Below, in pieces: positions 7,429-39,314 of a stretch of DNA of 64,000 nt. The first letter of the stretch is position 1; every line of letters starts with the position of its first letter. A program made the translations under genes and the position numbers. This stretch comes from Pseudomonadota bacterium (lineage in GTDB: Bacteria > Pseudomonadota > Gammaproteobacteria > Burkholderiales > Rhodocyclaceae): positions 1 through 64,000 of the forward strand of contig JAFEDI010000130.1 of the NCBI GenBank assembly GCA_018241725.1, written 5' to 3'. A model generated the notes under the pieces. It worked only from the letters and a program-made list of their open reading frames with translations. It ran no database searches and was not told the DNA's origin.

Positions 7429-8665
7429 GGGGCATCTCCTCCGAACGGTGAGCGTCCCGGCGCAGGATTTCGGTGCGCGGGGAGAAATTGAAGAACAGGG
7501 GCAGGCTGGCGGCGCCGATGGCGCCGGCGTCGGAGCCGAAGCTGCCGCGCACCAGCTCGGGCACGCCGCGGGCTTCCGGCGCGTTGGCGGCGAGGGCGCG
7601 GCTCAGGCGCAGGATCAGCGCGTCCACCAGGCCGGCGTCGATGTCGGCATCCACCACCACCGCCGGCAGGTCGAGCAGGCACAGGCTGGCGCGCAGCACC
7701 GGCGCCAGCGCATCGACGCAGTCCTCCAGCCACTCCTCGACGGCCGGGTGCTGCTGGCGCACGCATTCGGCCAGGTCATCGAGGGATTCTGCGGCGGCGC
7801 CCCAGTGGCGCAGATGGCGGGCCAGCGCATGCAGGGAGGCGCGGGACAGCAACAGATCCCAGGCACCGGCCGGGCGCGGGCTGGAGGCCAGGCGGCCGGG
7901 CGGGACGGGCATCACAGCGATATCGCCGGCGTTACCGCCGACGCCGCGCAGGCAGTCACCGTCCAGCGCGATGCCGCAGCCGATGACCGGGCCGAGGAAG
8001 ACGTACAGGAAGTCGTCGTGCTCCTGGCCGCAGCCGTGGAACAGCTCGGCGATGGCGGCGGCGTTGCCGTCGTTCTCGCTGAAGACCGGCAGGCCGCTGG
8101 TTTCGCCCAGTTCGTAGGCGAAGTCGTAGTCGTCCCAGTCGTGGAAATGGGGCTGGGGCATGTCCAGCTCGCGCAGCCACGCGCCCAGGTTGTAGGGCTG
8201 GGCGACGCCGATGCCGGTGAGGCGGCGCCGTTCGCCGTCGCTGAGGGTGGAGAGCACGGCATCCACGTCGGCGGCGACGATGGCCAGGGCCTCCTGCGGC
8301 GGCGGCAGCACCCGGTGATGGACGCGGCGGGCCAGGACGCGGCCGGCGAAGTCGAGCAGGGCGGTCTCGATGCTGTCCCGGTCGAGGCGCACGCCGACGG
8401 CGAAGGCGCCCTTCGGGTTGAGGCGGATCAGCGAGGCCGGCTGGCCGCGCTGGCCTTCCGCGCGGCGCCCGGTGAATTCGATGAGATCGGCGTCTTCGAG
8501 GGCCTGGATGATGGTGCCGACCGCCGTGCTGGTGAGGCCGGTGGCGCGGGCCAGGTCGGCCTTCGAGGCCTGGCCGCCGCGGCGCAGGGCCTGCAACAGC
8601 AGGCGTTCGTTGTAGCGCCGCAGGCGGATCGAGTTGCGGCCGCGGCCGGCGCGGGGATAGTGCAT
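7418..8665 (-). CDS. ROK-family transcriptional regulator of the sugar transporter cluster
   Basis: A 415-aa repressor-type ROK protein. It has a winged-helix domain at about residues 18-75 ([20 protein letters not shown]) followed by a sugar-kinase-like domain with the [12 protein letters not shown] segment. The CxCGxxGCxE zinc motif of NagC-type ROK proteins is not present. It starts with GAGGAG upstream and is the first gene of the fructose-type ABC operon. By analogy to FrcR/XylR it probably senses the transported sugar and represses its own operon. A palindrome just upstream is the likely operator. Confidence 0.87.
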
Positions 8666-8683
8666 GGTGGTCTCCTCGTCCCG

Positions 8684-8699
8684 CTGATTTTTAAATCAG
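8684..8699. promoter_or_regulatory. Palindromic operator candidate upstream of the ROK operon
   Basis: CTGATTT-TT-AAATCAG is a dyad with perfect 7-bp arms located 19 bp before the ROK start codon, followed by the AT-rich stretch GGTTTAATTAAT. Its position and AT-rich symmetric arms fit autoregulation by the ROK protein. Binding is inferred. Confidence 0.55.
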
Positions 8700-8751
8700 G
8701 CTGGTTTAATTAATCGGCCGGATCGGATGTCTGGCTGTCAGGGCTTGCTTG

Positions 8752-8782
8752 GGCCGCGCAGCCCGTCAGGAGCTGCGCGGCC
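8752..8782 (-). terminator. Hairpin after glucokinase gene
   Basis: An 11-bp perfect stem (GGCCGCGCAGC with GCTGCGCGGCC) and a 9-nt loop begins about 6 bp beyond the glucokinase stop codon on the reverse strand. There is no T-run, so it could act as a terminator or as an mRNA end stabiliser between glk and the ROK operon. Confidence 0.55.
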
Positions 8783-8787
8783 TGTGG

Positions 8788-9774
8788 TCAGGGCGCCTTG
8801 GCGACGAAGCCCGGCGCGTCGCGTTCCAGCGCGCGCGCGGCACCGGCCAGGCCGGGGTAGGGCGCGCGGATCACGTAGGTCGGGATCTGGGCCAGGTAGT
8901 CGCTGAAGCGCCCCTTCTGCTCGAAGCGGGCGCGGAAGGGCGAACGGGCGAAGTAACTGCCCAGCTTGGGGACGATGCCGCCGCCGATGTACACCCCGCC
9001 GCGGGCGCCGAGCACCAGGGCCAGGTTGGCGGCGACGGTGCCGAGCATCGCGCAGAAGATCTCCAGGCTCTCGGCGCAGTAGACGCAGCTGCCGTCGAGG
9101 CCCCGGGTGCTGATGGCGGCGGCGCTGAGCGCGTCGGTTGCCACGCCGTGGCGGCGCGTCACGGCCTCGTAGAGGGCCTCCAGGCCGGGGCCGGACAGCA
9201 CGCGCTCGGCCGATACATGGGGAAAGCGTTGCGCGAGCAGCGCCACGATCTCGGCCTCGCGGCTGTCGATGGCGGCCAGAGTGACGTGGCCGCCCTCGCC
9301 GTTGAGGGGGATGAAATCATCGCCGCAGGGCACCAGGCCGGAGATGCCGAGGCCGGTGCCGGCCCCGATCAGCGCCCGCGGGGCATGCGGGTCCGGCGCG
9401 CCTTCGCCGATCTGCTCCAGCTCGTCCGGCGCCAGCGTCGGCAGGGCCAGGGCCAGCACCGTGAAATCGTTGAGGACGCGCAGCTGCTGCAGGTCGAGGG
9501 CATCGCGCAGGGCTTCGATGGAGAAGGACCAGTGGTGGTTGGTCATGCTCACCTCGTCGCCGGTCACCGGATTGGCGATGCCGATGGCCGCACGCTGCAG
9601 GCGGTCGACACCGACCTGCGCCATGTAGTGGCGGATCGCCGCGGCGGGCGTCTCGTGATCGGCGCAGGGCAGGGTCAGCACGTCGCTGAACGGGGCGCCG
9701 GGCGTGCGCACCAACGCGAAGCGGGCGTTGGTGCCGCCGACGTCGCCGATCAGGTCGGGGATGGGGGTCGTCAT
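8788..9774 (-). CDS. glk: Glucokinase
   Basis: ATP-dependent glucokinase of the bacterial Glk family, 328 aa, making glucose 6-phosphate. I place the start at 9774, where the protein begins MTTPIPDLIGDVGGTNARF, the N-terminal ATP-phosphate motif of the family. The LNDFT catalytic loop, GAGTGLG and GEGGH motifs are all present. It lies 17 bp downstream of zwf on the reverse strand, an operon covering the first two steps from glucose into the Entner-Doudoroff/pentose phosphate routes. A second glucokinase domain is encoded at 20003. Confidence 0.94.
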   Translation of the reverse strand: MTTPIPDLIGDVGGTNARFALVRTPGAPFSDVLTLPCADHETPAAAIRHYMAQVGVDRLQRAAIGIANPVTGDEVSMTNHHWSFSIEALRDALDLQQLRVLNDFTVLALALPTLAPDELEQIGEGAPDPHAPRALIGAGTGLGISGLVPCGDDFIPLNGEGGHVTLAAIDSREAEIVALLAQRFPHVSAERVLSGPGLEALYEAVTRRHGVATDALSAAAISTRGLDGSCVYCAESLEIFCAMLGTVAANLALVLGARGGVYIGGGIVPKLGSYFARSPFRARFEQKGRFSDYLAQIPTYVIRAPYPGLAGAARALERDAPGFVAKAP

Positions 9775-9791
9775 GGTGCGTGCTCCGTGGC

Positions 9792-11252
<1,461 letters not shown>

Positions 11253-11308
11253 CTCCGTTCCTTCGTGTGCTTGCGATGCATGAGAGCGTCGCGTTGTTTT
11301 ATCTAGTA

Positions 11309-11324
11309 TGTAGTAAAAGTACTA
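11309..11324. promoter_or_regulatory. HexR-like operator candidate, zwf side
   Basis: TGTAGTAAAAGTACTA contains the inverted repeat TAGTA-AAAG-TACTA and resembles the HexR consensus TGTAAT-n-ATTACA. It lies about 57 bp before the zwf start codon. Binding is inferred from similarity to known HexR sites. Confidence 0.5.
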
Positions 11325-11503
11325 AAAGGCAAGAGAATTTTATTTGTAGATAAATTAGTGAGCCATATTTAGCAGGCGAGGATAGGTGTTGGGGTGCGTG
11401 ATCATCTATGGGAAAATGGCTTTAGTCCCCGTAAATGCTGGATTACACATGTATAGAGGTGACGTAGCGGAAAGATTTTCCCGAATCGCGCTTGTGTTTT
11501 ATT

Positions 11504-11518
11504 TGTAGCTTAACTACA
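11504..11518. promoter_or_regulatory. HexR-like operator candidate, porin side
   Basis: TGTAGCTTAACTACA has perfect 5-bp arms TGTAG/CTACA and is the best match in the window to a HexR site. It lies about 140 bp before the porin gene and would suit repression by a 2-keto-3-deoxy-6-phosphogluconate-responsive regulator. Confidence 0.6.
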
Positions 11519-11633
11519 CTCGAATCCAGTTAAACAAAACTACATTCGTTTCGCGGGTGGTCGGAAAAGAGGGGTTCCGGCCGATGGCCTGAAGTTGGGG
11601 CAGCCCGGGGTGGATGTAACCAGCAGCGTTTGA

Positions 11634-12977
<1,344 letters not shown>

Positions 12978-29740: not shown

Positions 29741-29763
29741 GCAGAATCTTCCTTACCTCACGC

Positions 29764-29963
29764 TCCTGACGACCCCTGCGCCAGGAGCGCATCCTGCCGT
29801 GTAAAGAAATCCTTATCCCGGGCCTTCAGCGTGGCCAGGAAGTTGCTGACGATCTGGCGGTAGCTTGTCCATGTCGCCGGCCTTGTAGGGGGAGGGCGTG
29901 TTCTGGCGGTCGATGTGCAGGCAGCCCTCCGGCAGGAGCAGGTTGCGGGCGCCTTCCTCACTA
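29764..29963 (-). pseudogene. Decayed partial copy of the gene at 33066-33878
   Basis: This stretch repeats the 3' part of the intact reverse-strand gene at 33066-33878. The order matches (RDKDFFTR, YRQIVSNFLA, NTPSPYKA, then the LLLPEG region) but with an in-frame loss of about 36 bp near 29820, a 1-bp insertion near 29866 causing a frameshift, and an internal deletion of about 180 bp near 29922. The homology ends within about 15 bp of the stop codon of the adjacent sensor kinase. It is non-functional. Confidence 0.8.
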
Positions 29964-29977
29964 ATCGGAAGCGGCGC

Positions 29978-32878
29978 TTACTCCGTTTTCGGATGAGGCC
30001 GCCATTTCCGGAGTATCGCGTAGAGATCCTCCGGCTGATAAGGTTTGCCGAGATGGTCATTCATCCCTGCTTCGAGACAACGTATCTGGTCTTCAACCAT
30101 CGCATTGGCAGTTATCGCGATGATGGGAAGGTCAGCGAGCCCTGGCAGCTTCCGGATTTCGCGCGTTGCGGTCAGTCCGTCCATGACGGGCATTTGCATG
30201 TCCATCAACACCAGGTCAAAGGGTGCGCTCCTGACCATATCGAGGGCTTGAGCGCCATTCTCCGCAATCGTCACGCTTACGCCGACATCATGAAGGAACT
30301 CTTTGGTGACCTCCTGATTGACTTCATTGTCTTCAGCTAAAAGGACACGAACCCTTGCGATGCTTGAAAGGTCTGCCGGTGCTGTTGATATCGAGGCAAG
30401 CGGCAATGCCTCGGCATCCAGAACGCTGAGCCGCGCCGTAAACCAGAACGTCGAGCCCTGTCCCGGAGTACTGTCCACGCCGACCTCGCCCCCCAGCAGC
30501 GTTGCAATGCGTTTGGAGATGACCAGCCCCAGCCCCGTACCGCCGTATTTGCGCGAGATGGACCCATCAGCCTGCTGGAAGCTCTCGAAGAGTCGCTGTT
30601 TTTGGTCTTCGCTCAAGCCAATCCCGGAGTCACTAACCGAAAAGCGGAGAAGTGCCTCCGGGTCTTCGTTCCCCAATTTCTCGACACGAATCACAATATT
30701 GCCGCGCTCCGAAAACTTCACCGCATTGCTTACATAGTTGGCGAGCACTTGAGTAAGGCGAGCGGGGTCGCCAACCACGTGAGTCGGCACATCGGGGGCT
30801 ATGTCGACGAGGAGGCCCAGGCCTTTTTCCGCACAGCGCTCCTGCACCATGGACGACACATTACTCAATACCGTGGGCAGTTCGAAGCGCACATGTTCGA
30901 TGCGCATTTTCCCCGCTTCAATCTTGGAAAAGTCCAGGACGTCGTTGATGATGGTCAGCAGATGCTCGGCGGCAACCCGGACCTTCCGGAGGTAATCGCG
31001 CTGCCGAGGATTGAGCTCACTTTGTTGAAGACGATGGGTAAAGCCCAGTATGGCAGTCATGGGGGTACGTATTTCATGGCTCATGTTTGCCACGAAGTCC
31101 GCTTTGGTTTGTGCCGCTTCCTCCGCCAGCGCCTTTGCGTGAGCAAGGGCATTGAACGCTTCCCGCTCCGGCGTGATGTCCTCGATGATGCTGACAAGTC
31201 CCCCTTTTGGATTACCGGGCTCGACGGCCTTTATCGATAGATGCGCCCAGAAACGGCTCCCATTCTTGCGCATCATTTCAATATCCACGCTGAACGTCTC
31301 ATCGTCATCGACGTGAGCGTCGACGTGCGCTCCCATGGAGTCGAAATCCGACTCAGTGCTGTAGAGAAGGCGCGTGGATTGGTGTTCCAGTTCGCCACGC
31401 CCATAGCCGAAGAGTTCTTCCACGGCGCGATTGCAGCGCAGGATTTTCCGGTCCTGAACGAATACGATACCGACGGTTGTCGCCTCGAAGATGGCTTGCT
31501 GCTCGACATTCGCAACGCGTAGCGATTCCGCGGTTGCCGCAAGCGCTGCGGTGCGCTCGGCAACGCGCGCTTCGAGCTCCGAGCGGTAAGCGGCCAGTTC
31601 CCGCTCGTCGCTTTTCTGCTTTGAGATGTCGTTCCAGATGACGTGCAGGAGCCGCCGATTGTCACGATAAATGGTGGTCAGCAGGATTCGTGCTTCGAAG
31701 GTCGTTCCGTCAGCGCGTTGATGCGTCCATTCAAAGCAGTTCGAGCCCTTGGCGAACGTCTCTTCAATCAGCTCCGCTGCTTTTTCGACTGAGGGCCGAC
31801 CATCTGGCTGGGTCGGCGGTGAGATTTCCCAAGGGACGCGTCCAATCAGCTCTTCAGGCCTCTCCATGCGAAGCATGGTCAAGGTTGCCGCATTGGCAGC
31901 GATGAAGTGTGCCTCATCGGTGAGTGCTATCGGCTGCACGGTATTTTCAAAAAGCGCGCGGAAACGCTCTTCGCTTTCTTCCAGATGGACGGTTTTGGCC
32001 TCCAGCTCCCGTGTCTTTCGGGCAACGGCAACTTTGAGCAGGCGGACCCAGAATGCCATGGCTGCGCCCAGTAGAAGCAGGGAGGCAAAGGCAATTCCGA
32101 CTATCTTCGAGTATGGCTCCCAACGAAGGGGGGTGCCCATCCATTTTTTGTTGAGTGCTTGGAGTTCGTCTTCCCCGATCGCTGCCGTACCCCGTTCAAT
32201 CTGCTCCAGGATGGCTTCATCGCCCTTTCTGACGGCGCGATGAAACTGGCCCTTATAGAGTTCGAACGCCTTGACGAACTCATTGTGGATGCCTGCCCGG
32301 TATAGGTAATAATTTGCAGGGCCTTCATCCATGCAAAAGAGCTTGATGTCGCTTTTGCTCGCTTCTTCAATCAGGGCCATGTAGCTCCGTTGAGTTAGCA
32401 GCGAGGTGATGCCCCTTCTCTGTAACTCGTCGATGCAGGCATCTCCTGTCTCGACGCCAATCTGAAAGCCGCGCAGCGAATTCGGGTTGTGAATGCCGCT
32501 GATGGACCGATGCGCATAAATTGCAACAGGCAGCGTTGCGTACGGTTTGGAGAAACTGTAAATAGCCTCTCGTTCGGGTATTTTAAAAATCGCATCGATG
32601 ACGTCGAACTCGCCTGCACGCATCAACCGCTGAGCGTCGCTCCAGTTGGTCGCCACGAATCTGACGTGTATGCCCGTCTTTTTTTCCCACAGTTTCCAGA
32701 AGTCGACGAGGTAGCCTTCGGGGTGACCGTCAGCATCAAGGAAGATATAGGGCGGATAGCTGTTGTCACTGACGACGGATATGGTTTTAGCCGGCGTGTT
32801 AACGTCAGCGGCTATCGCCAGTAGTGATGTTCCACACTGGGCAAGAACAACTGCCAGCATCTTTACGAGTCGATTCAT
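29978..32878 (-). CDS. BvgS/EvgS-like hybrid sensor histidine kinase with periplasmic solute-binding domain
   Basis: A 966-aa membrane sensor. After a signal peptide (1-24) comes one bacterial solute-binding type-3 domain (about 30-250), a membrane helix (about 258-281), two PAS domains (about 300-420 and 455-570), a HisKA domain with MSHEIRTPM and phospho-accepting H601, an ATPase domain (about 700-820; GGTGLGLVISKRI) and a receiver domain (about 850-960; DLVLMDMQMPVMDG). No Hpt domain and no separate response regulator are nearby, so its output partner is unknown. It may sense an amino acid-like ligand. The GC content is lower than in the core genes, and decayed copies of neighbouring genes flank it. 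Confidence 0.93.
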   Translation of the reverse strand: MNRLVKMLAVVLAQCGTSLLAIAADVNTPAKTISVVSDNSYPPYIFLDADGHPEGYLVDFWKLWEKKTGIHVRFVATNWSDAQRLMRAGEFDVIDAIFKIPEREAIYSFSKPYATLPVAIYAHRSISGIHNPNSLRGFQIGVETGDACIDELQRRGITSLLTQRSYMALIEEASKSDIKLFCMDEGPANYYLYRAGIHNEFVKAFELYKGQFHRAVRKGDEAILEQIERGTAAIGEDELQALNKKWMGTPLRWEPYSKIVGIAFASLLLLGAAMAFWVRLLKVAVARKTRELEAKTVHLEESEERFRALFENTVQPIALTDEAHFIAANAATLTMLRMERPEELIGRVPWEISPPTQPDGRPSVEKAAELIEETFAKGSNCFEWTHQRADGTTFEARILLTTIYRDNRRLLHVIWNDISKQKSDERELAAYRSELEARVAERTAALAATAESLRVANVEQQAIFEATTVGIVFVQDRKILRCNRAVEELFGYGRGELEHQSTRLLYSTESDFDSMGAHVDAHVDDDETFSVDIEMMRKNGSRFWAHLSIKAVEPGNPKGGLVSIIEDITPEREAFNALAHAKALAEEAAQTKADFVANMSHEIRTPMTAILGFTHRLQQSELNPRQRDYLRKVRVAAEHLLTIINDVLDFSKIEAGKMRIEHVRFELPTVLSNVSSMVQERCAEKGLGLLVDIAPDVPTHVVGDPARLTQVLANYVSNAVKFSERGNIVIRVEKLGNEDPEALLRFSVSDSGIGLSEDQKQRLFESFQQADGSISRKYGGTGLGLVISKRIATLLGGEVGVDSTPGQGSTFWFTARLSVLDAEALPLASISTAPADLSSIARVRVLLAEDNEVNQEVTKEFLHDVGVSVTIAENGAQALDMVRSAPFDLVLMDMQMPVMDGLTATREIRKLPGLADLPIIAITANAMVEDQIRCLEAGMNDHLGKPYQPEDLYAILRKWRPHPKTE

Positions 32879-33065: not shown

Positions 33066-33878
33066 TCAGACGCCTGATGACCCCAATGCCAGCAGCGCCC
33101 CCAGCCGCGTGAAGAAATCCTTGTCCCGCGCGTACTGCTCGCTGGAGATCATTCCCCGCTGGGCCTCCAGCGCAGCCAGGAAGTTGCTGACGATCTGGCG
33201 GTAGCTGTCCATGTCGTCGGCCTTGTAGGGGGAGGGCGTGTTCTGGCCATCGATGTGCAGGCCGTACACGGCGTCGTGCATCATCAGGCCATAGGTCATC
33301 GCCTCGCCATCGGGCATGGCGGCCGTGGCTTGAAACCACGCCTCCCGCACCGCCGCGGGGGCTTCGTTGGGCGGGAAGTGGGCGATCAGGCCCGCGCCGA
33401 CCTCGTCGAGGCCATCGCCATTGAGATCCACGCAATAGCCCTCCGGCAGGAGCAGATTGCGGGCGCCTTCCTCGCTGATGGCCGCCACGTCGATCGGCTC
33501 GGCCAGGCAGTGGTTCCTGCGGACGGCCTCCAGCTCCCCGGCAGACAGGCTGCTCAGAAACTGGCGGGGATTGCTCATCGCGCCGCTGGCGTAGGCCTTG
33601 TCCAGCACCTTGGCGTACACCGCCTGACTATCGGCGCCCACGCCACGCAGCGCGGACAGCTCCGTGTGCGTCCGCCCGAGGATGGCCTCCAGGGCCTCGG
33701 ACGACGTGGGGCCCGCCTGGCCACCCGCCGCCTCCGGCCCGGCCGCAGCCCCGTCGGCAACGGCGCTGGCGGCCGCGAAGGCCGACTGGAAGGTCTGGTA
33801 GAAACTGCTGTCGGGCGCCTCGGCGTAGCTGTGGCGCTGAGACGCGGTGATCGGCTGACCCACGGCCCGAATGTCCAT
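33066..33878 (-). CDS. Hypothetical protein with calcium-binding-like DxNxDG motif
   Basis: A 270-aa protein that I do not recognise. GGAGG precedes the start. The N terminus is alanine-rich with no signal peptide. Near residue 165 it contains DLNGDGLDEVG, resembling the calcium loop of EF-hand/FG-GAP-type repeats, and in the C-terminal half IDGQNTPSPYKADDMDSYRQIVSNF. A decayed fragment of the same gene lies at 29764-29963 on the other side of the sensor kinase, showing that this locus has been duplicated. Confidence 0.7.
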   Translation of the reverse strand: MDIRAVGQPITASQRHSYAEAPDSSFYQTFQSAFAAASAVADGAAAGPEAAGGQAGPTSSEALEAILGRTHTELSALRGVGADSQAVYAKVLDKAYASGAMSNPRQFLSSLSAGELEAVRRNHCLAEPIDVAAISEEGARNLLLPEGYCVDLNGDGLDEVGAGLIAHFPPNEAPAAVREAWFQATAAMPDGEAMTYGLMMHDAVYGLHIDGQNTPSPYKADDMDSYRQIVSNFLAALEAQRGMISSEQYARDKDFFTRLGALLALGSSGV

Positions 33879-34018
33879 TTTCTGCCTCCGTGTCGGTAAG
33901 AGTTGCCGGTTGGCGGAATCGCCTGCCGGGCTTCTGGTGTGCAGGGGAGATACATCCGCATTTCAGCAGAAATCGCGCCAGGGGATATCTTTTGCAGCCA
34001 GCTGCCAACGTTCCAGTG

Positions 34019-34148
34019 CTCACCGAGGTTACGGTGCTGGAGAGGCCCGCTGGACCATCAACTCAACGTGGTCGTTGTGAAGGCGGAAGACAAGAGCGAG
34101 CATTGGGCGAAGGGCCTGAGGCGGCACTTCCGACGCAGGAACACCGGA
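34019..34148 (+). pseudogene. Decayed remnant of the metQ 3' end
   Basis: This stretch aligns to metQ positions about 29569-29684 in the same orientation: CTCACCGA, GTGCTGGAGA, TCAACGTGGTCG, GTGAAGGCGGAAGACAAG and GGGCGAAGG are all kept in order. Small insertions and substitutions shift the frame. It has no start or upstream metQ sequence and is non-functional. The rest of the 303-bp gap (33879-34181) holds only the promoter side of the hypothetical gene. Confidence 0.8.
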
Positions 34149-34181: not shown

Positions 34182-35978
34182 CTAAGCGGCGTCTTGAAGC
34201 TCTTCTTGAACCTTCGCTTCGATCCCCATGGTGAGTAGTGTGATCTCTATGATTCGATCAAAACACTTCTCCAGCACAGAATTAGTTCTGAATGAAACGG
34301 GAAGTCCGCTGGTAATCGGCAGCAATACGGGATTTTTCATTGAGCCTCCTAGCTTGTCGATTCGCGTTCCGATTGGGTTCGGAGTTTGATCAAGAAACTC
34401 AGGAAAAATAGCAAAGACACCTGTAATTTCGTTCCTGCTTAATGCATTTATCTCACCATTAAAAACGGCCATGTGGTCGTAGTATTTGTCACGCAGCTCC
34501 GGGAGCTTGTAGCGGTCCACCGAGAAGGAGTTGCTGTACTTTGCATCGAGAAGAATATGCCTGACCTCTCCAGCAGAAGTGAGTCTCATAGCAAAGTCAG
34601 GGCACCAATGAGCACCGGGATAGGCCCTGTGCGGCAATTTCACGAGATCCATATGTTCAGTTTCACCATTGAACTTATAGATATCTGCCTCGTAGTTAAT
34701 CGTTGCGATGACTTCATTTTTGCTGAAGGTTAAAGAGGATGGAATCAGTCTATCAAAAGATTCTCCCATCACCACGTCGTCCAACATCCACCCGCGTACA
34801 ACCATATACTCGAACAGCCTGAACAATACGAAGAACTCAAATATTTTTGATAGGGAGCGAAGCTTGATCAGGAAATTTTTGCCATCAAGCGTGGGTGACC
34901 CGATACTAAACCAGAGAGTCAACTGTTCGAAAACAGGCCTATAAAAGCGAGAGGTTCGAACATAGGGCGTAATACGCGGAAAAATCTCCCCCCGGAATTC
35001 AATGTCGAAATTACGTTCAAGCTGAACGATCATACTGGCAGCTGCTTCGATCACCTGCTCGCAGCGCCTGTGCATCGCGCCACCGGTGAATTTGATCAAA
35101 ATCTCCCCGATTGACACGTACTCTTTGTCGTAATTGGCAATCTTCTGGCCCCTAAACGAATCGCCGATGTCGTCCATTAGTGCCATGATTTTGGTTCGTA
35201 TGGAATACAAGCCACCTAGCAACATTCGGTTTTCATCAACGTCATAGTCATGGTGCAACATACTGGTGTCGATAGATTGCGTTGAATAATTTCTGCCTCG
35301 TAACATCACATCTCCCCGACCGACGGTTGGCCTTAGGGCGTCGAGGTTAAAAATTACATCGATCGGATCAATTTGCCCGCCTGACTTTTCTAATTTCCAA
35401 GCCGGCACCTTTTCAGGTGTCAGCTTGTATCGTAAATGACGAATAAATTCGGCGCGTTGATTGAGCAGCATCTGGATAATGTGCTCTGCCGTTGAGAGGA
35501 CAATTTCAGGATCAGCTCTGCCTTCTGGAGAGAGTCCCGCAGGTCGCTTTGTTCTTGACATGCAGGCTCTGATCACCCCTTCTCGACAATCAGCCAAATA
35601 CCGAATCATTTTTTCGGCTTGTGCAGCAGTAATCTTGGTGGCGAGTACCTCGATGTGGTATTTGAACTCATGGTTTTCGCATATTAGGCGAATCGTAGAG
35701 TGGCCAAAAGATTCTCGAAAGGCTTTCTCGGGTGAAGAAGAGAAAGCAAATATCCAAGACCCATTTTCGGATCGGCGATTGTCTGAGTGTAGTGGGACGT
35801 TGTAGTCCTCTATAAAAAGAATTGGTGGCTCGACTGCGTCATCATCACCAGCCAAGATAACCGTAATTTTGACGACCTGATTTTCTTTTGCCACCAAAAT
35901 TGAGGTTGGCTCACTACCTGGAATCCAAGTAGTGAGCTGCTCATCAATGGTGATTTCAATACGCTCCGGCCTCATCAT
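34182..35978 (-). CDS. McrC-like DUF2357/PD-(D/E)XK nuclease
   Basis: A 598-aa protein matching the DUF2357 plus PD-(D/E)XK_7 nuclease layout, the McrC-type partner of McrB-like AAA+ proteins. The helix YDVDENRMLLGGLYSI (245-260) fits the DUF2357 core. The nuclease motifs are E381 in the preceding helix, CPDF with D461, and LLDAKYS with D478 and K480, followed by the conserved YKLPELRDKYYDHMAVF. It follows the AAA+ gene by 5 bp. Together they are predicted to recognise and cut foreign nucleic acid. Both genes are much more AT-rich than the flanking core, a sign of transfer. Confidence 0.82.
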   Translation of the reverse strand: MMRPERIEITIDEQLTTWIPGSEPTSILVAKENQVVKITVILAGDDDAVEPPILFIEDYNVPLHSDNRRSENGSWIFAFSSSPEKAFRESFGHSTIRLICENHEFKYHIEVLATKITAAQAEKMIRYLADCREGVIRACMSRTKRPAGLSPEGRADPEIVLSTAEHIIQMLLNQRAEFIRHLRYKLTPEKVPAWKLEKSGGQIDPIDVIFNLDALRPTVGRGDVMLRGRNYSTQSIDTSMLHHDYDVDENRMLLGGLYSIRTKIMALMDDIGDSFRGQKIANYDKEYVSIGEILIKFTGGAMHRRCEQVIEAAASMIVQLERNFDIEFRGEIFPRITPYVRTSRFYRPVFEQLTLWFSIGSPTLDGKNFLIKLRSLSKIFEFFVLFRLFEYMVVRGWMLDDVVMGESFDRLIPSSLTFSKNEVIATINYEADIYKFNGETEHMDLVKLPHRAYPGAHWCPDFAMRLTSAGEVRHILLDAKYSNSFSVDRYKLPELRDKYYDHMAVFNGEINALSRNEITGVFAIFPEFLDQTPNPIGTRIDKLGGSMKNPVLLPITSGLPVSFRTNSVLEKCFDRIIEITLLTMGIEAKVQEELQDAA

Positions 35979-35983
35979 GTAGC

Positions 35984-38509
35984 TTACCAGCAGAAAAAAT
36001 CGTACGAGTGCAGTTCGTTCTGCCCTGCGAAGATCATCCGGTCAAGATACTCGCCAGACATTTCAAGTCCGTTGGCATCGCACACCTTCTTGATCTCAAG
36101 CAAACGAGCACCAAATTTGCTGCCGGTGCCACGAATTTGTGGAAAGATATGCTGCATCATGGCCCAGTCGAAAGCCGTGAATTCATTTCCGGATGAGCGC
36201 ATTAAAGCCCCGGCGCGAGCACAATACTGGCGAACCGCCTGAATTTTTCGTTGGCTCAGCGGAATCTGACGTCCGAATTCGCCGGAAGTATTTTGCATCG
36301 CAGATAGGATGCTATCCATTGCTGCCTTTTCATGCGGTTCAAACTCTGGGACGGTTGCGAAAACGCCAAAGAGAGCATGCATAGTATCTGCTGAAATCGG
36401 TAGGCTCTGGAGCGTTGAGAGATCAATTTCCTGACTGTCGGTAATGTCGTGTGGTTGCATAACAATAACCGTCGCCCGATCAAGGACACGTTGACTCAGA
36501 GGCTCTGTCGTACCGTCATAGTTAATCGTTGCAAGGAAGCGAAGCGACTCCGGCAAGTGAAGGACTTTTTTACCAAGGTTGATCTTTCGATCCTTTGGCG
36601 TATCCGCCATCCCCATGAATACAGACCAGTAATGCTCAATCGAACTCAGGTTGGCCTCATCAAGCAGCACATACGACATGGCGCGCTGGCCACTTCCCTC
36701 TTCTGAGCAAATAGCGTTCAAATATTCATATAAACCAGTTGATGCAGACTGAAACTGATCACTTAGAGGGTTGTGAAAACCAACGATGTCACGGATTGAC
36801 GTCCATCCACGTGCAACAGGCACAGTATGGAGCCGTGAGCGCAGACCTTGAGCCTCAGAGAAGAGGGTGCATAATGAAGTCTTCCCGACCCCTGGAAGTC
36901 CCGCTAAGAACGTTACAAAGCTCTGCTGCGTAGAAATCAGCAGATTGGCGACGTCATTATTGGTAAATTGACGCCCAAGCGCATTTAGACGCATCTTGAT
37001 TGCATCAACTATTGCACGTTGGGCCAGAATCGTATCTTTAGTCTCAATGGGGTGGCAGGGCGTATTGACCGCCGGCAGCTCAATCTCCTCTGAACCAAAT
37101 GCTCCATTAATGCTATCAACGTAGGGTCGCATCTGAAGTAACTTCTTTCGCAACTCATTTTGGTCACGCACCAGTTCTTCCTGGATGTTTGCATGGTCAC
37201 GGCGGGCATTGACCGCTTCTTCCTTGAAGTATTCTTGAAGAACTTTTAGCCGATCGGTTTCCTTTTGGATATTAATCAATCCTTCCATTTGATTCAGACT
37301 TTTTCGAATCTCTGCCAGGCGCACATTGTTTGCTTCGATCTCTGCGTTACCTTCATTTATCTGTGCTTGGATTTTTTCTGACACAGTCTTAAGGTAAGCC
37401 TGTTGGTCGTTCTCAATGCCTTCGCGTAGCGTCTGTCGCTTAGTCTCGATTTCGTCACCCAGAGCAACCGATTCTTTTTTTCTGGCCTCAATCTCCTCTC
37501 GAAGTAGAGCTATTTCTTCCTGTCGCTTTCGCATTTCATCGGCATGTTCGGATTCGGCCTCCGATTTTAGTTTTCCGATAAAGCGGGCACGATGCTGCTC
37601 GATGTAAGCCTCAATAACCTTCGACCCCATTTCGCTTTTTAAAACACTTTCGAACACCGTGTTCATCTGGTCAAGTGTTGCAGTGCTAGAGTTGACAATT
37701 TCAGTGAACATTTCAAGGCGGCGGCGAGACATTGGTGAATTTCCGTGCCGAGATGCGCTAGCCATAGATGCCATGGTCGCCCAACTCTTACGATCAATAA
37801 GCTTGCCTCCAGAATCACCGGCCAATCCCTTTACGAACTCGATGATTTCTGAATCGGATGCGTACTCTTCAAAACCAGAGGCGGTAGCAACACGGACGAC
37901 GTCGCCAAGAATCATCTTTGGGCCCGCAGGCGTATTTACCTGTGTTACATAATGACTGATGTTGTCATAGGTCGTTCTGTTGATTTGTTTCGTCCTCCCC
38001 GCACGCCCTAGGCCACCACCCGTAATAAATTTGAGCTCAATGACAGGGTCGCCGGCATTGGAGGACTTGTCTGTCCACTCCATGGGGCCAAAGCAATCGC
38101 CTTTGGCGTCCTTCACCATGACGTAGGTGGTTGCAGGTAGCATTCTGACGCTAAGGGATTTGTCATTCCTAGATGGCAACTCTGCTTCAAGCAGATCCAA
38201 GTATTCACTAGGCTGCAATTTTTCTGCGAAATTGCCAGACGTTTTGTAGATACATTGACCTGAGCTTGGTTCTTGTTGCGCGGCCTGAGCCATCAGCTCC
38301 ACACGAATCTTGAAATATTCCCCATAGCGAAATTTACTATCAATCTCTTCGTAGCGCCCAATCACAAAAGCTTGCAATGTTTGGCAAAAATTGTTTTCAT
38401 TAATCGGAATAAGACTTCCATTTACTTCATCTGCGATTGCACTAATCAATCCAGTGCCAGCTAAATTTTTTGCCCGTAGTTTGCATGCGATGATTGTTCT
38501 GAATTCCAT
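35984..38509 (-). CDS. McrB-like AAA+ protein with long central coiled coil
   Basis: An 841-aa protein. Residues 1-290 form an N-terminal region of unknown fold, probably target recognition. About 300-460 is a long charged coiled coil (repeated E/K/Q heptads). About 500-770 is an AAA+ domain with Walker A GLPGVGKTS (537-545), Walker B YVLLDEAN (613-620), sensor-1 region ATINYDGTTEPLS (660-672) and arginine finger RVLDRA (674-679). GWTSIRDIVGFHNPLS is typical of McrB-like modules. The canonical McrB NxxD motif is replaced by NYDGTT, so GTP specificity is uncertain. With the nuclease downstream it forms a type IV-like restriction pair; the coiled coil recalls CoCoNuT-class systems. Confidence 0.82.
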   Translation of the reverse strand: MEFRTIIACKLRAKNLAGTGLISAIADEVNGSLIPINENNFCQTLQAFVIGRYEEIDSKFRYGEYFKIRVELMAQAAQQEPSSGQCIYKTSGNFAEKLQPSEYLDLLEAELPSRNDKSLSVRMLPATTYVMVKDAKGDCFGPMEWTDKSSNAGDPVIELKFITGGGLGRAGRTKQINRTTYDNISHYVTQVNTPAGPKMILGDVVRVATASGFEEYASDSEIIEFVKGLAGDSGGKLIDRKSWATMASMASASRHGNSPMSRRRLEMFTEIVNSSTATLDQMNTVFESVLKSEMGSKVIEAYIEQHRARFIGKLKSEAESEHADEMRKRQEEIALLREEIEARKKESVALGDEIETKRQTLREGIENDQQAYLKTVSEKIQAQINEGNAEIEANNVRLAEIRKSLNQMEGLINIQKETDRLKVLQEYFKEEAVNARRDHANIQEELVRDQNELRKKLLQMRPYVDSINGAFGSEEIELPAVNTPCHPIETKDTILAQRAIVDAIKMRLNALGRQFTNNDVANLLISTQQSFVTFLAGLPGVGKTSLCTLFSEAQGLRSRLHTVPVARGWTSIRDIVGFHNPLSDQFQSASTGLYEYLNAICSEEGSGQRAMSYVLLDEANLSSIEHYWSVFMGMADTPKDRKINLGKKVLHLPESLRFLATINYDGTTEPLSQRVLDRATVIVMQPHDITDSQEIDLSTLQSLPISADTMHALFGVFATVPEFEPHEKAAMDSILSAMQNTSGEFGRQIPLSQRKIQAVRQYCARAGALMRSSGNEFTAFDWAMMQHIFPQIRGTGSKFGARLLEIKKVCDANGLEMSGEYLDRMIFAGQNELHSYDFFCW

Positions 38510-38999
38510 ATAGCCCTCGTTTCTATAGTTCCCTATTGATTCGTGTTTTGTCTTTTATATTGCATACTGCGCAGTTATTTTAGGAGGCTGTTTTATAAGC
38601 CTGCCAAATGGTGCGCCTGAGGTGTCGTTGATTTGCTCTTGCCAAACTGCTCAGCCAGGCGCCCCGGTTTTCAATCAACTATTCTGCTGATTGGAGTGGC
38701 GGATGTTGACAGCTCTAGACAAGAGAATGTTGGAGGCCTTTTGGCGGAGGGGTTTCTTGTCTTCTTGGTCGTAATCCCACTTTTGCCAAGTAGAAACCAG
38801 TAACATTTGTAGCAAAGAGGTGCGAGCGCCTTGAACCTTCTAAAGGCTGTAGTGCAAAGACGAGAAGCGGGATTTTCATTGCGTCAGGTTATGGCGTAGT
38901 GATGTAGACAGATATCGCACGACTACCGACGGATTCGCTACGGAACAGTTCACATTTTTTAGATTTAACAGACGAGGTGGAGAGTTTTGTGTTCGTCAT
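38510..38999. promoter_or_regulatory. AT-rich upstream region of the McrBC-like operon
   Basis: About 490 bp without a convincing gene. Read on the reverse strand, a TATAAA -10 candidate lies at 38559-38554. A perfect palindrome ACTGCGCAGT at 38566-38575 sits just upstream of it and could be an operator for the two-gene system. A short AGGCT/AGCCT hairpin follows at about 38583. I see nothing else recognisable. Confidence 0.4.
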
Positions 39000-39314
39000 C
39001 CCTCGCCCCAGGCTTCCCCTGCCCAGGACACACCCCTCCGACTGGAGCATTTGCTCTCCAGCCTTGAACTTACTGGGCTCCGATTTAACTGTTCGCCCCT
39101 CGGATTTAAACTTTTTCTCCGCCAACCTGAGCTCACTCCCCTCAGACTTGAACCATCGAAGCCGCGACTTGAGCCAGCTCCCCCCGGAGCGAAACCACCT
39201 CAAGTCCAAGCGGAGCCAGCTTCCCTCAAACTTGAACCCACTTCCCTCCGAGCGAAGCTCGTCAAGCCAAAAGCCCACCCGGTTCAACGAAATCTTGACC
39301 CCGCTTCCCCCGCC
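39000..39314. repeat. Degenerate 21-bp tandem repeat, about 14-15 copies
   Basis: Successive 21-bp units can be read without gaps from about 39000 (clearly from 39021) to 39314. Many begin CTTGAAC or GCGGAGC and end CTCCGA or CTCAGA. Because 21 is divisible by three, every frame gives a heptad pattern: forward SLPSDLN-like or LEPxxLR-like, reverse WFKSEGS-like. An open frame at 38889-39377 on the reverse strand spans it, but I cannot tell whether it is expressed. The array starts between the restriction island and the AraC gene and overlaps the AraC 3' end. Confidence 0.75.

Follow-up and report, generated by a model that had tools for sequence, protein, structure and literature searches.

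A two-gene NxD McrBC system on an AT-rich insert of a Rhodocyclaceae contig, best filed with the Type I CoCoNuTs

The window, that is, the whole 64,000-nucleotide stretch analysed, comprises positions 1 to 64,000 of contig JAFEDI010000130.1 (assembly GCA_018241725.1; Rhodocyclaceae). It carries two genes, B and C, both on the (−) strand, as are all features placed within them below. Gene B (35984..38509) encodes a CnuB/McrB-like AAA+ protein of 841 aa. Gene C (34182..35978) encodes a CnuC/McrC-like nuclease of 598 aa. The spacing is 5 bp in the list of open reading frames (ORFs), and the coordinates are those of the original prediction, which was made from the bare letters of the DNA. Member of the McrBC class in its wide sense: an McrB-like AAA+ protein and an McrC-like partner in one operon.

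The AAA+ domain of B comprises residues 493–837 (35999..37033; AlphaFold2 model and profile match). The McrB-like motifs predicted for it are present: Walker A, GLPGVGKT, at residues 537–544 (36878..36901), and Walker B, VLLDEANL, at residues 614–621 (36647..36670). The signature has to be refined. It is NxD, N663-Y664-D665 (36515..36523; motif table), whereas canonical McrB has NxxD (NTAD in the E. coli control). This places B in the NxD branch that PMC11090510 describes together with the CoCoNuTs. NxD is present in 12/12 tabulated pairs, the window counted in; the Walker B aspartate and the signature asparagine are separated by 46 residues in window B and by 45–65 across the 12 pairs. Residues 307–468 (37106..37591) form a coiled coil with one proline in 162 residues, modelled by AlphaFold2 as long helices 307–383 and 392–468 at low to middling predicted local distance difference test (pLDDT) values, in agreement with the predicted length of about 160 residues.

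The first 290 residues of B had been taken as one unassigned block. They are divided in the AlphaFold2 model into residues 1–72 (38294..38509), with predicted strands in OB-like order, a second, mostly beta domain at 88–215 (37865..38248) and helices at 219–305; the families are undecided. Comparison of residues 1–72 with a cold-shock profile is not significant, and the best Pfam match of the N-terminus (E 0.085) is to a family unrelated to cold-shock. G141 and P142 of the second domain are invariant in 9/9 aligned rows, and its score against an EVE profile lies inside the shuffled range. No modified-base domain is found in B by Pfam. Searches of solved-structure sequences with B alone and with the N-terminal alignment are uninformative; Foldseek with the B model returns chiefly MCM, dynein and MoxR-type AAA+ chains. 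No cold-shock or YTH fold is listed in the VIA table for B, which is silent on the N-terminus because its coverage is mainly residues 492–695.

Protein C consists of an Ig-like beta-sandwich at residues 1–114 (35637..35978), a helical McrC/DUF2357-like body at 115–375 (34854..35636) and a PD-(D/E)XK nuclease core at 376–530 (34389..34853) with the catalytic motif D478-A479-K480 (34539..34547). McrC alignments cover residues 115–578, 58–577 and 157–577. The four nuclease residues named beforehand, E381, D461, D478 and K480, are in place and are not lost in close homologues, being invariant in 7/7 rows of both homologue alignments, which overlap; P460 and A479 are likewise invariant in 7/7 rows. 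The DUF2357 assignment holds in part: PF09823 is detected by Pfam in 3/7 rows of alignment A2 and not in window C. Pfam, PADLOC, NCBIfam and PHROGs give no informative match with window C, and searches of solved-structure sequences with C alone and with the C alignment are uninformative. Foldseek matches of the C model are weak and mostly Ig-like, and profile comparison with four McrC/CnuC proteins is weak.

The pair lies on an AT-rich island, as predicted. G + C content is 0.46–0.50 across 34–39 kb, against 0.665 at 33–34 kb and 0.64–0.69 at 39–42 kb. At third codon positions (GC3) it is 0.51 in C and 0.49 in B, against 0.86–0.92 in five nearby genes, among them a metQ-like gene (0.90), the gene at 33066–33878 (0.88), an AraC-type gene (0.86) and an acyl-CoA dehydrogenase gene (0.92). 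Two congeneric genomes lack the pair at this site: in them the match to the window ends at 33975 on the left and restarts on the right at 38899 (G020, L052) or 39243 (G016, L050); in a third (G021, L051) only the right side is comparable, and the match restarts at 39029. The exact left edge of the insert is uncertain because of a 130-bp remnant just left of C (34018–34147), 79% like the 3' part of the metQ-like gene (28.9–29.7 kb). Promoter and terminator scans give nothing above shuffled sequence. The spot is variable: a DUF7946 gene occupies the site of the pair in G020 (L052, 2028–2927).

B and C are adjacent in 13 of the 15 loci read, the window counted, and in the two exceptions (L014, L022) one partner is missing at a contig end. 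C is present in 3/398 genomes of the phylum sample, its own genome included, and was not found in 22 other genomes of the genus, some of them incomplete. A search for DUF2357 in the genome of the window gave nothing, but control genomes also gave no signal. Weaker matches to B occur in two genomes of the genus, G008 and G010; to judge by their genes, these systems (L015, L016) resemble Type II CoCoNuTs, with a helicase-type gene, a further gene, a coiled-coil NxD protein and a C partner with CxxC. Plasmid records matching C number 27 (24 over at least 80% of C); those matching B number 286 (13 over at least 80% of B), and many of the listed B matches span only part of the AAA+ domain. Phage records give one partial match to B and none to C; single-protein pattern scans of viral contigs are uninformative.

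The homologues are carried by plasmids, prophage-like contigs and integrative elements. The L021 pair (7974–12272) lies amid prophage genes for a terminase small subunit, an endolysin, a spanin and O-like replication, with the lysis and terminase genes on one side of it and the O-like gene on the other. The L024 pair is near an endolysin gene. On L004, an Acinetobacter plasmid of 110 kb, the pair is accompanied by a BcnI-type restriction system, Vsr and PtuA/PDC-M01-like (Septu-like) genes; the region of the pair also occurs as a viral contig. L013 also carries PDC-M28A-C and an HSDR_N/RAMA protein. A Citrobacter version of the pair is present in 3/5426 E. coli genomes; in the two copies read, the element that holds it adjoins tRNA-Phe and also encodes ArdC, TraI and integrase. 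No E. coli genome matched the L025 pair at near identity. L020 (same record as L004) and L026 (near copy of L025, 99.9%) were dropped; of the near copies L005 and L019 (99.6%), L019 alone entered the alignments. L024 does not enter alignments A1, A3 and A5 of B, and the larger of its ORFs is kept in the motif table and tree; L003 (short B) was excluded from the B alignments and kept in both.

In PMC11090510, CoCoNuT Types I-A and I-C consist of two genes only. The paper assigns cold-shock and YTH-like domains (YTH-like frequent, not universal) to the B proteins of Type I, takes a helical insert that separates Walker B from NxD as the mark of Type I-A, and ascribes to the CnuC of Type I-C an N-terminal Ig-like beta-sandwich most like RhoGDI. 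The lack of extra nucleases, one of two grounds on which a possible uncharacterised subtype had been suggested, thus does not separate the pair from the CoCoNuTs. Type I-C shares with the window a CnuB and CnuC only, an NxD GTPase with an N-terminal coiled coil, and a C protein made of Ig-like sandwich, McrC body and nuclease. NxD, coiled coil, two-gene operon, absence of the Type I-A insert and the sandwich are all present in the window; RhoGDI is among the look-alikes of the sandwich, and no CnuA, CnuH or CnuE is seen beside the pair (ORF list by eye). Cold-shock and YTH-like domains are not confirmed in window B. The comparison with Type I-C is one with its published description.

Other types fit less well. 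L075 (5005–9791) looks like a Type I-A CoCoNuT by the definitions of the paper, judged by NxD, the insert and the CxxC clusters: 123 residues separate its Walker B aspartate from the asparagine of N-I-D, against 57–66 in seven other NxD proteins, and its C protein has four CxxC. It matches PADLOC PDC-M26A and M26B over almost full length; the name PDC-M26 was not found in the literature searched, and its putative equation with Type I-A is our own. Two genes, NxD, an expected coiled coil and an active-looking nuclease motif are common to L075 and the window. The window pair differs in its 46-residue spacing and in a C protein with zero CxxC; window B matches PDC-M26A over 308–634 only, and window C matches no M26B model. 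Type I-A was rejected on the absence of insert and CxxC clusters. Types II and III (L015, L016, L072–L074, L076; labels from gene content) share the NxD AAA+ domain (profile prob 99.9) and carry extra genes up- or downstream, for example of AAA/helicase type; they were rejected because no helicase-type genes are seen beside the window pair (ORF list). On anatomy the pair most resembles I-C, and it is best filed among the Type I CoCoNuTs, apparently as a new member or near relative and not as a new kind of system.

A ring motor with a nuclease, acting in the manner of a Type I CoCoNuT most like I-C, is the probable mode of action. By analogy with McrBC and PMC11090510, B (CnuB) would build a nucleotide-driven AAA+ ring, most likely on GTP, from which the coiled coils and putative nucleic-acid-sensing N-terminal domains would project. 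C (CnuC) would dock on this ring through its McrC/DUF2357-like body and stimulate hydrolysis, and its PD-(D/E)XK site would cut once the N-terminal domains of B detect phage or plasmid nucleic acid. DNA is the substrate leaned to for cutting; RNA or single-stranded DNA may be the trigger.

The canonical McrBC mode, in which the N-terminus reads a modified DNA base, B translocates DNA with GTP, C cuts and NxD only tunes hydrolysis, is possible and rather unlikely. In its favour are the intact PD-(D/E)XK site, the McrC-like fold of C and, close to two of the homologues (L004, L023), genes for DNA methylases. It is opposed by the absence of NxxD (NYD in the window, NTAD in E. coli), by the long coiled coil and different N-terminus of B, and by the Pfam and EVE results above. 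The pair also differs from E. coli McrBC in the added N-terminal sandwich of C.

Placement beside, rather than within, Type I was also weighed. In a tree of 21 AAA+ domains the 12 pairs group at 86/88, apart from the rows labelled Type I-A, II and III, and the window joins L004 and L013 at 96/93; reference Type I-C sequences are not among the 21 rows, and the deeper order is unsafe because several branches are long. This grouping, though only at 86/88, and a second beta-domain in B that matches no recognised family speak for a sister clade made up of pairs only, inside the NxD branch yet not part of Type I proper, with a sensor module of its own and a mechanism otherwise alike. Such a clade is doubtful, as every Type I-C feature that can be decided from anatomy, by description, is found in the window. 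Equally tentative is the proposal that the OB-like and Gly-Pro beta-domains of B form an undescribed nucleic-acid sensor which defines a separate two-gene NxD clade on prophages, plasmids and integrative elements, used in competition between elements.

For the pair read as a Type I CoCoNuT, defence, probably against phage, is the best inference, because of the McrBC class, the relatives on mobile elements and the three loci with restriction or candidate defence neighbours (L004, L013, L023). Of the McrBC-class defence system originally predicted, the class and the mobile and defence context of relatives are borne out. One point weighs against it: no defence gene is recognised beside the window copy in the ORF list read by eye, the homologue loci having been scanned in part. 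Mobile-element cargo with a non-defence role, such as element maintenance or plasmid competition, would suit that bare neighbourhood and the plasmid, prophage-like and tRNA-Phe settings, and is very improbable in view of the Type IV restriction fold with its catalytic site, the defence neighbours at three loci and the defence-like nature of element competition itself.

RNA is the target that was predicted for CoCoNuTs from their sequences, and PMC11090510 (2024) states that none of the NxD-type McrB GTPases had yet been characterised. Druantia I and II, which are anti-phage systems, are counted as Type IV (fourth group) CoCoNuTs with an inactivated CnuB motor in PMC12458937. The literature searched showed no experiment of later date on CoCoNuTs of Types I, II or III. 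A compact two-gene form with an intact nuclease offers an easy test of DNA versus RNA action by NxD McrBC systems and suits the question of what is sensed by the coiled coil and the N-terminal domains. Since E. coli chromosomes already carry related copies, a laboratory test is simple.

Three copies among the homologues look damaged or shortened: L024 (7396–9980), with B split in two ORFs; L005 (12792–14222), with a shorter C frame of 476 aa; and L014 (970–2163), a lone C frame of 397 aa with an upstream transposase-like ORF (by eye) at the contig edge. To the left of the pair in the window, and distinct from it, is a hybrid histidine-kinase gene (29978–32878; GC3 0.64). The 3' part of the gene at 33066–33878 is repeated across it at 29756–29965 (76–95% in pieces), an arrangement as if the kinase gene had been inserted between that gene and its partial copy.

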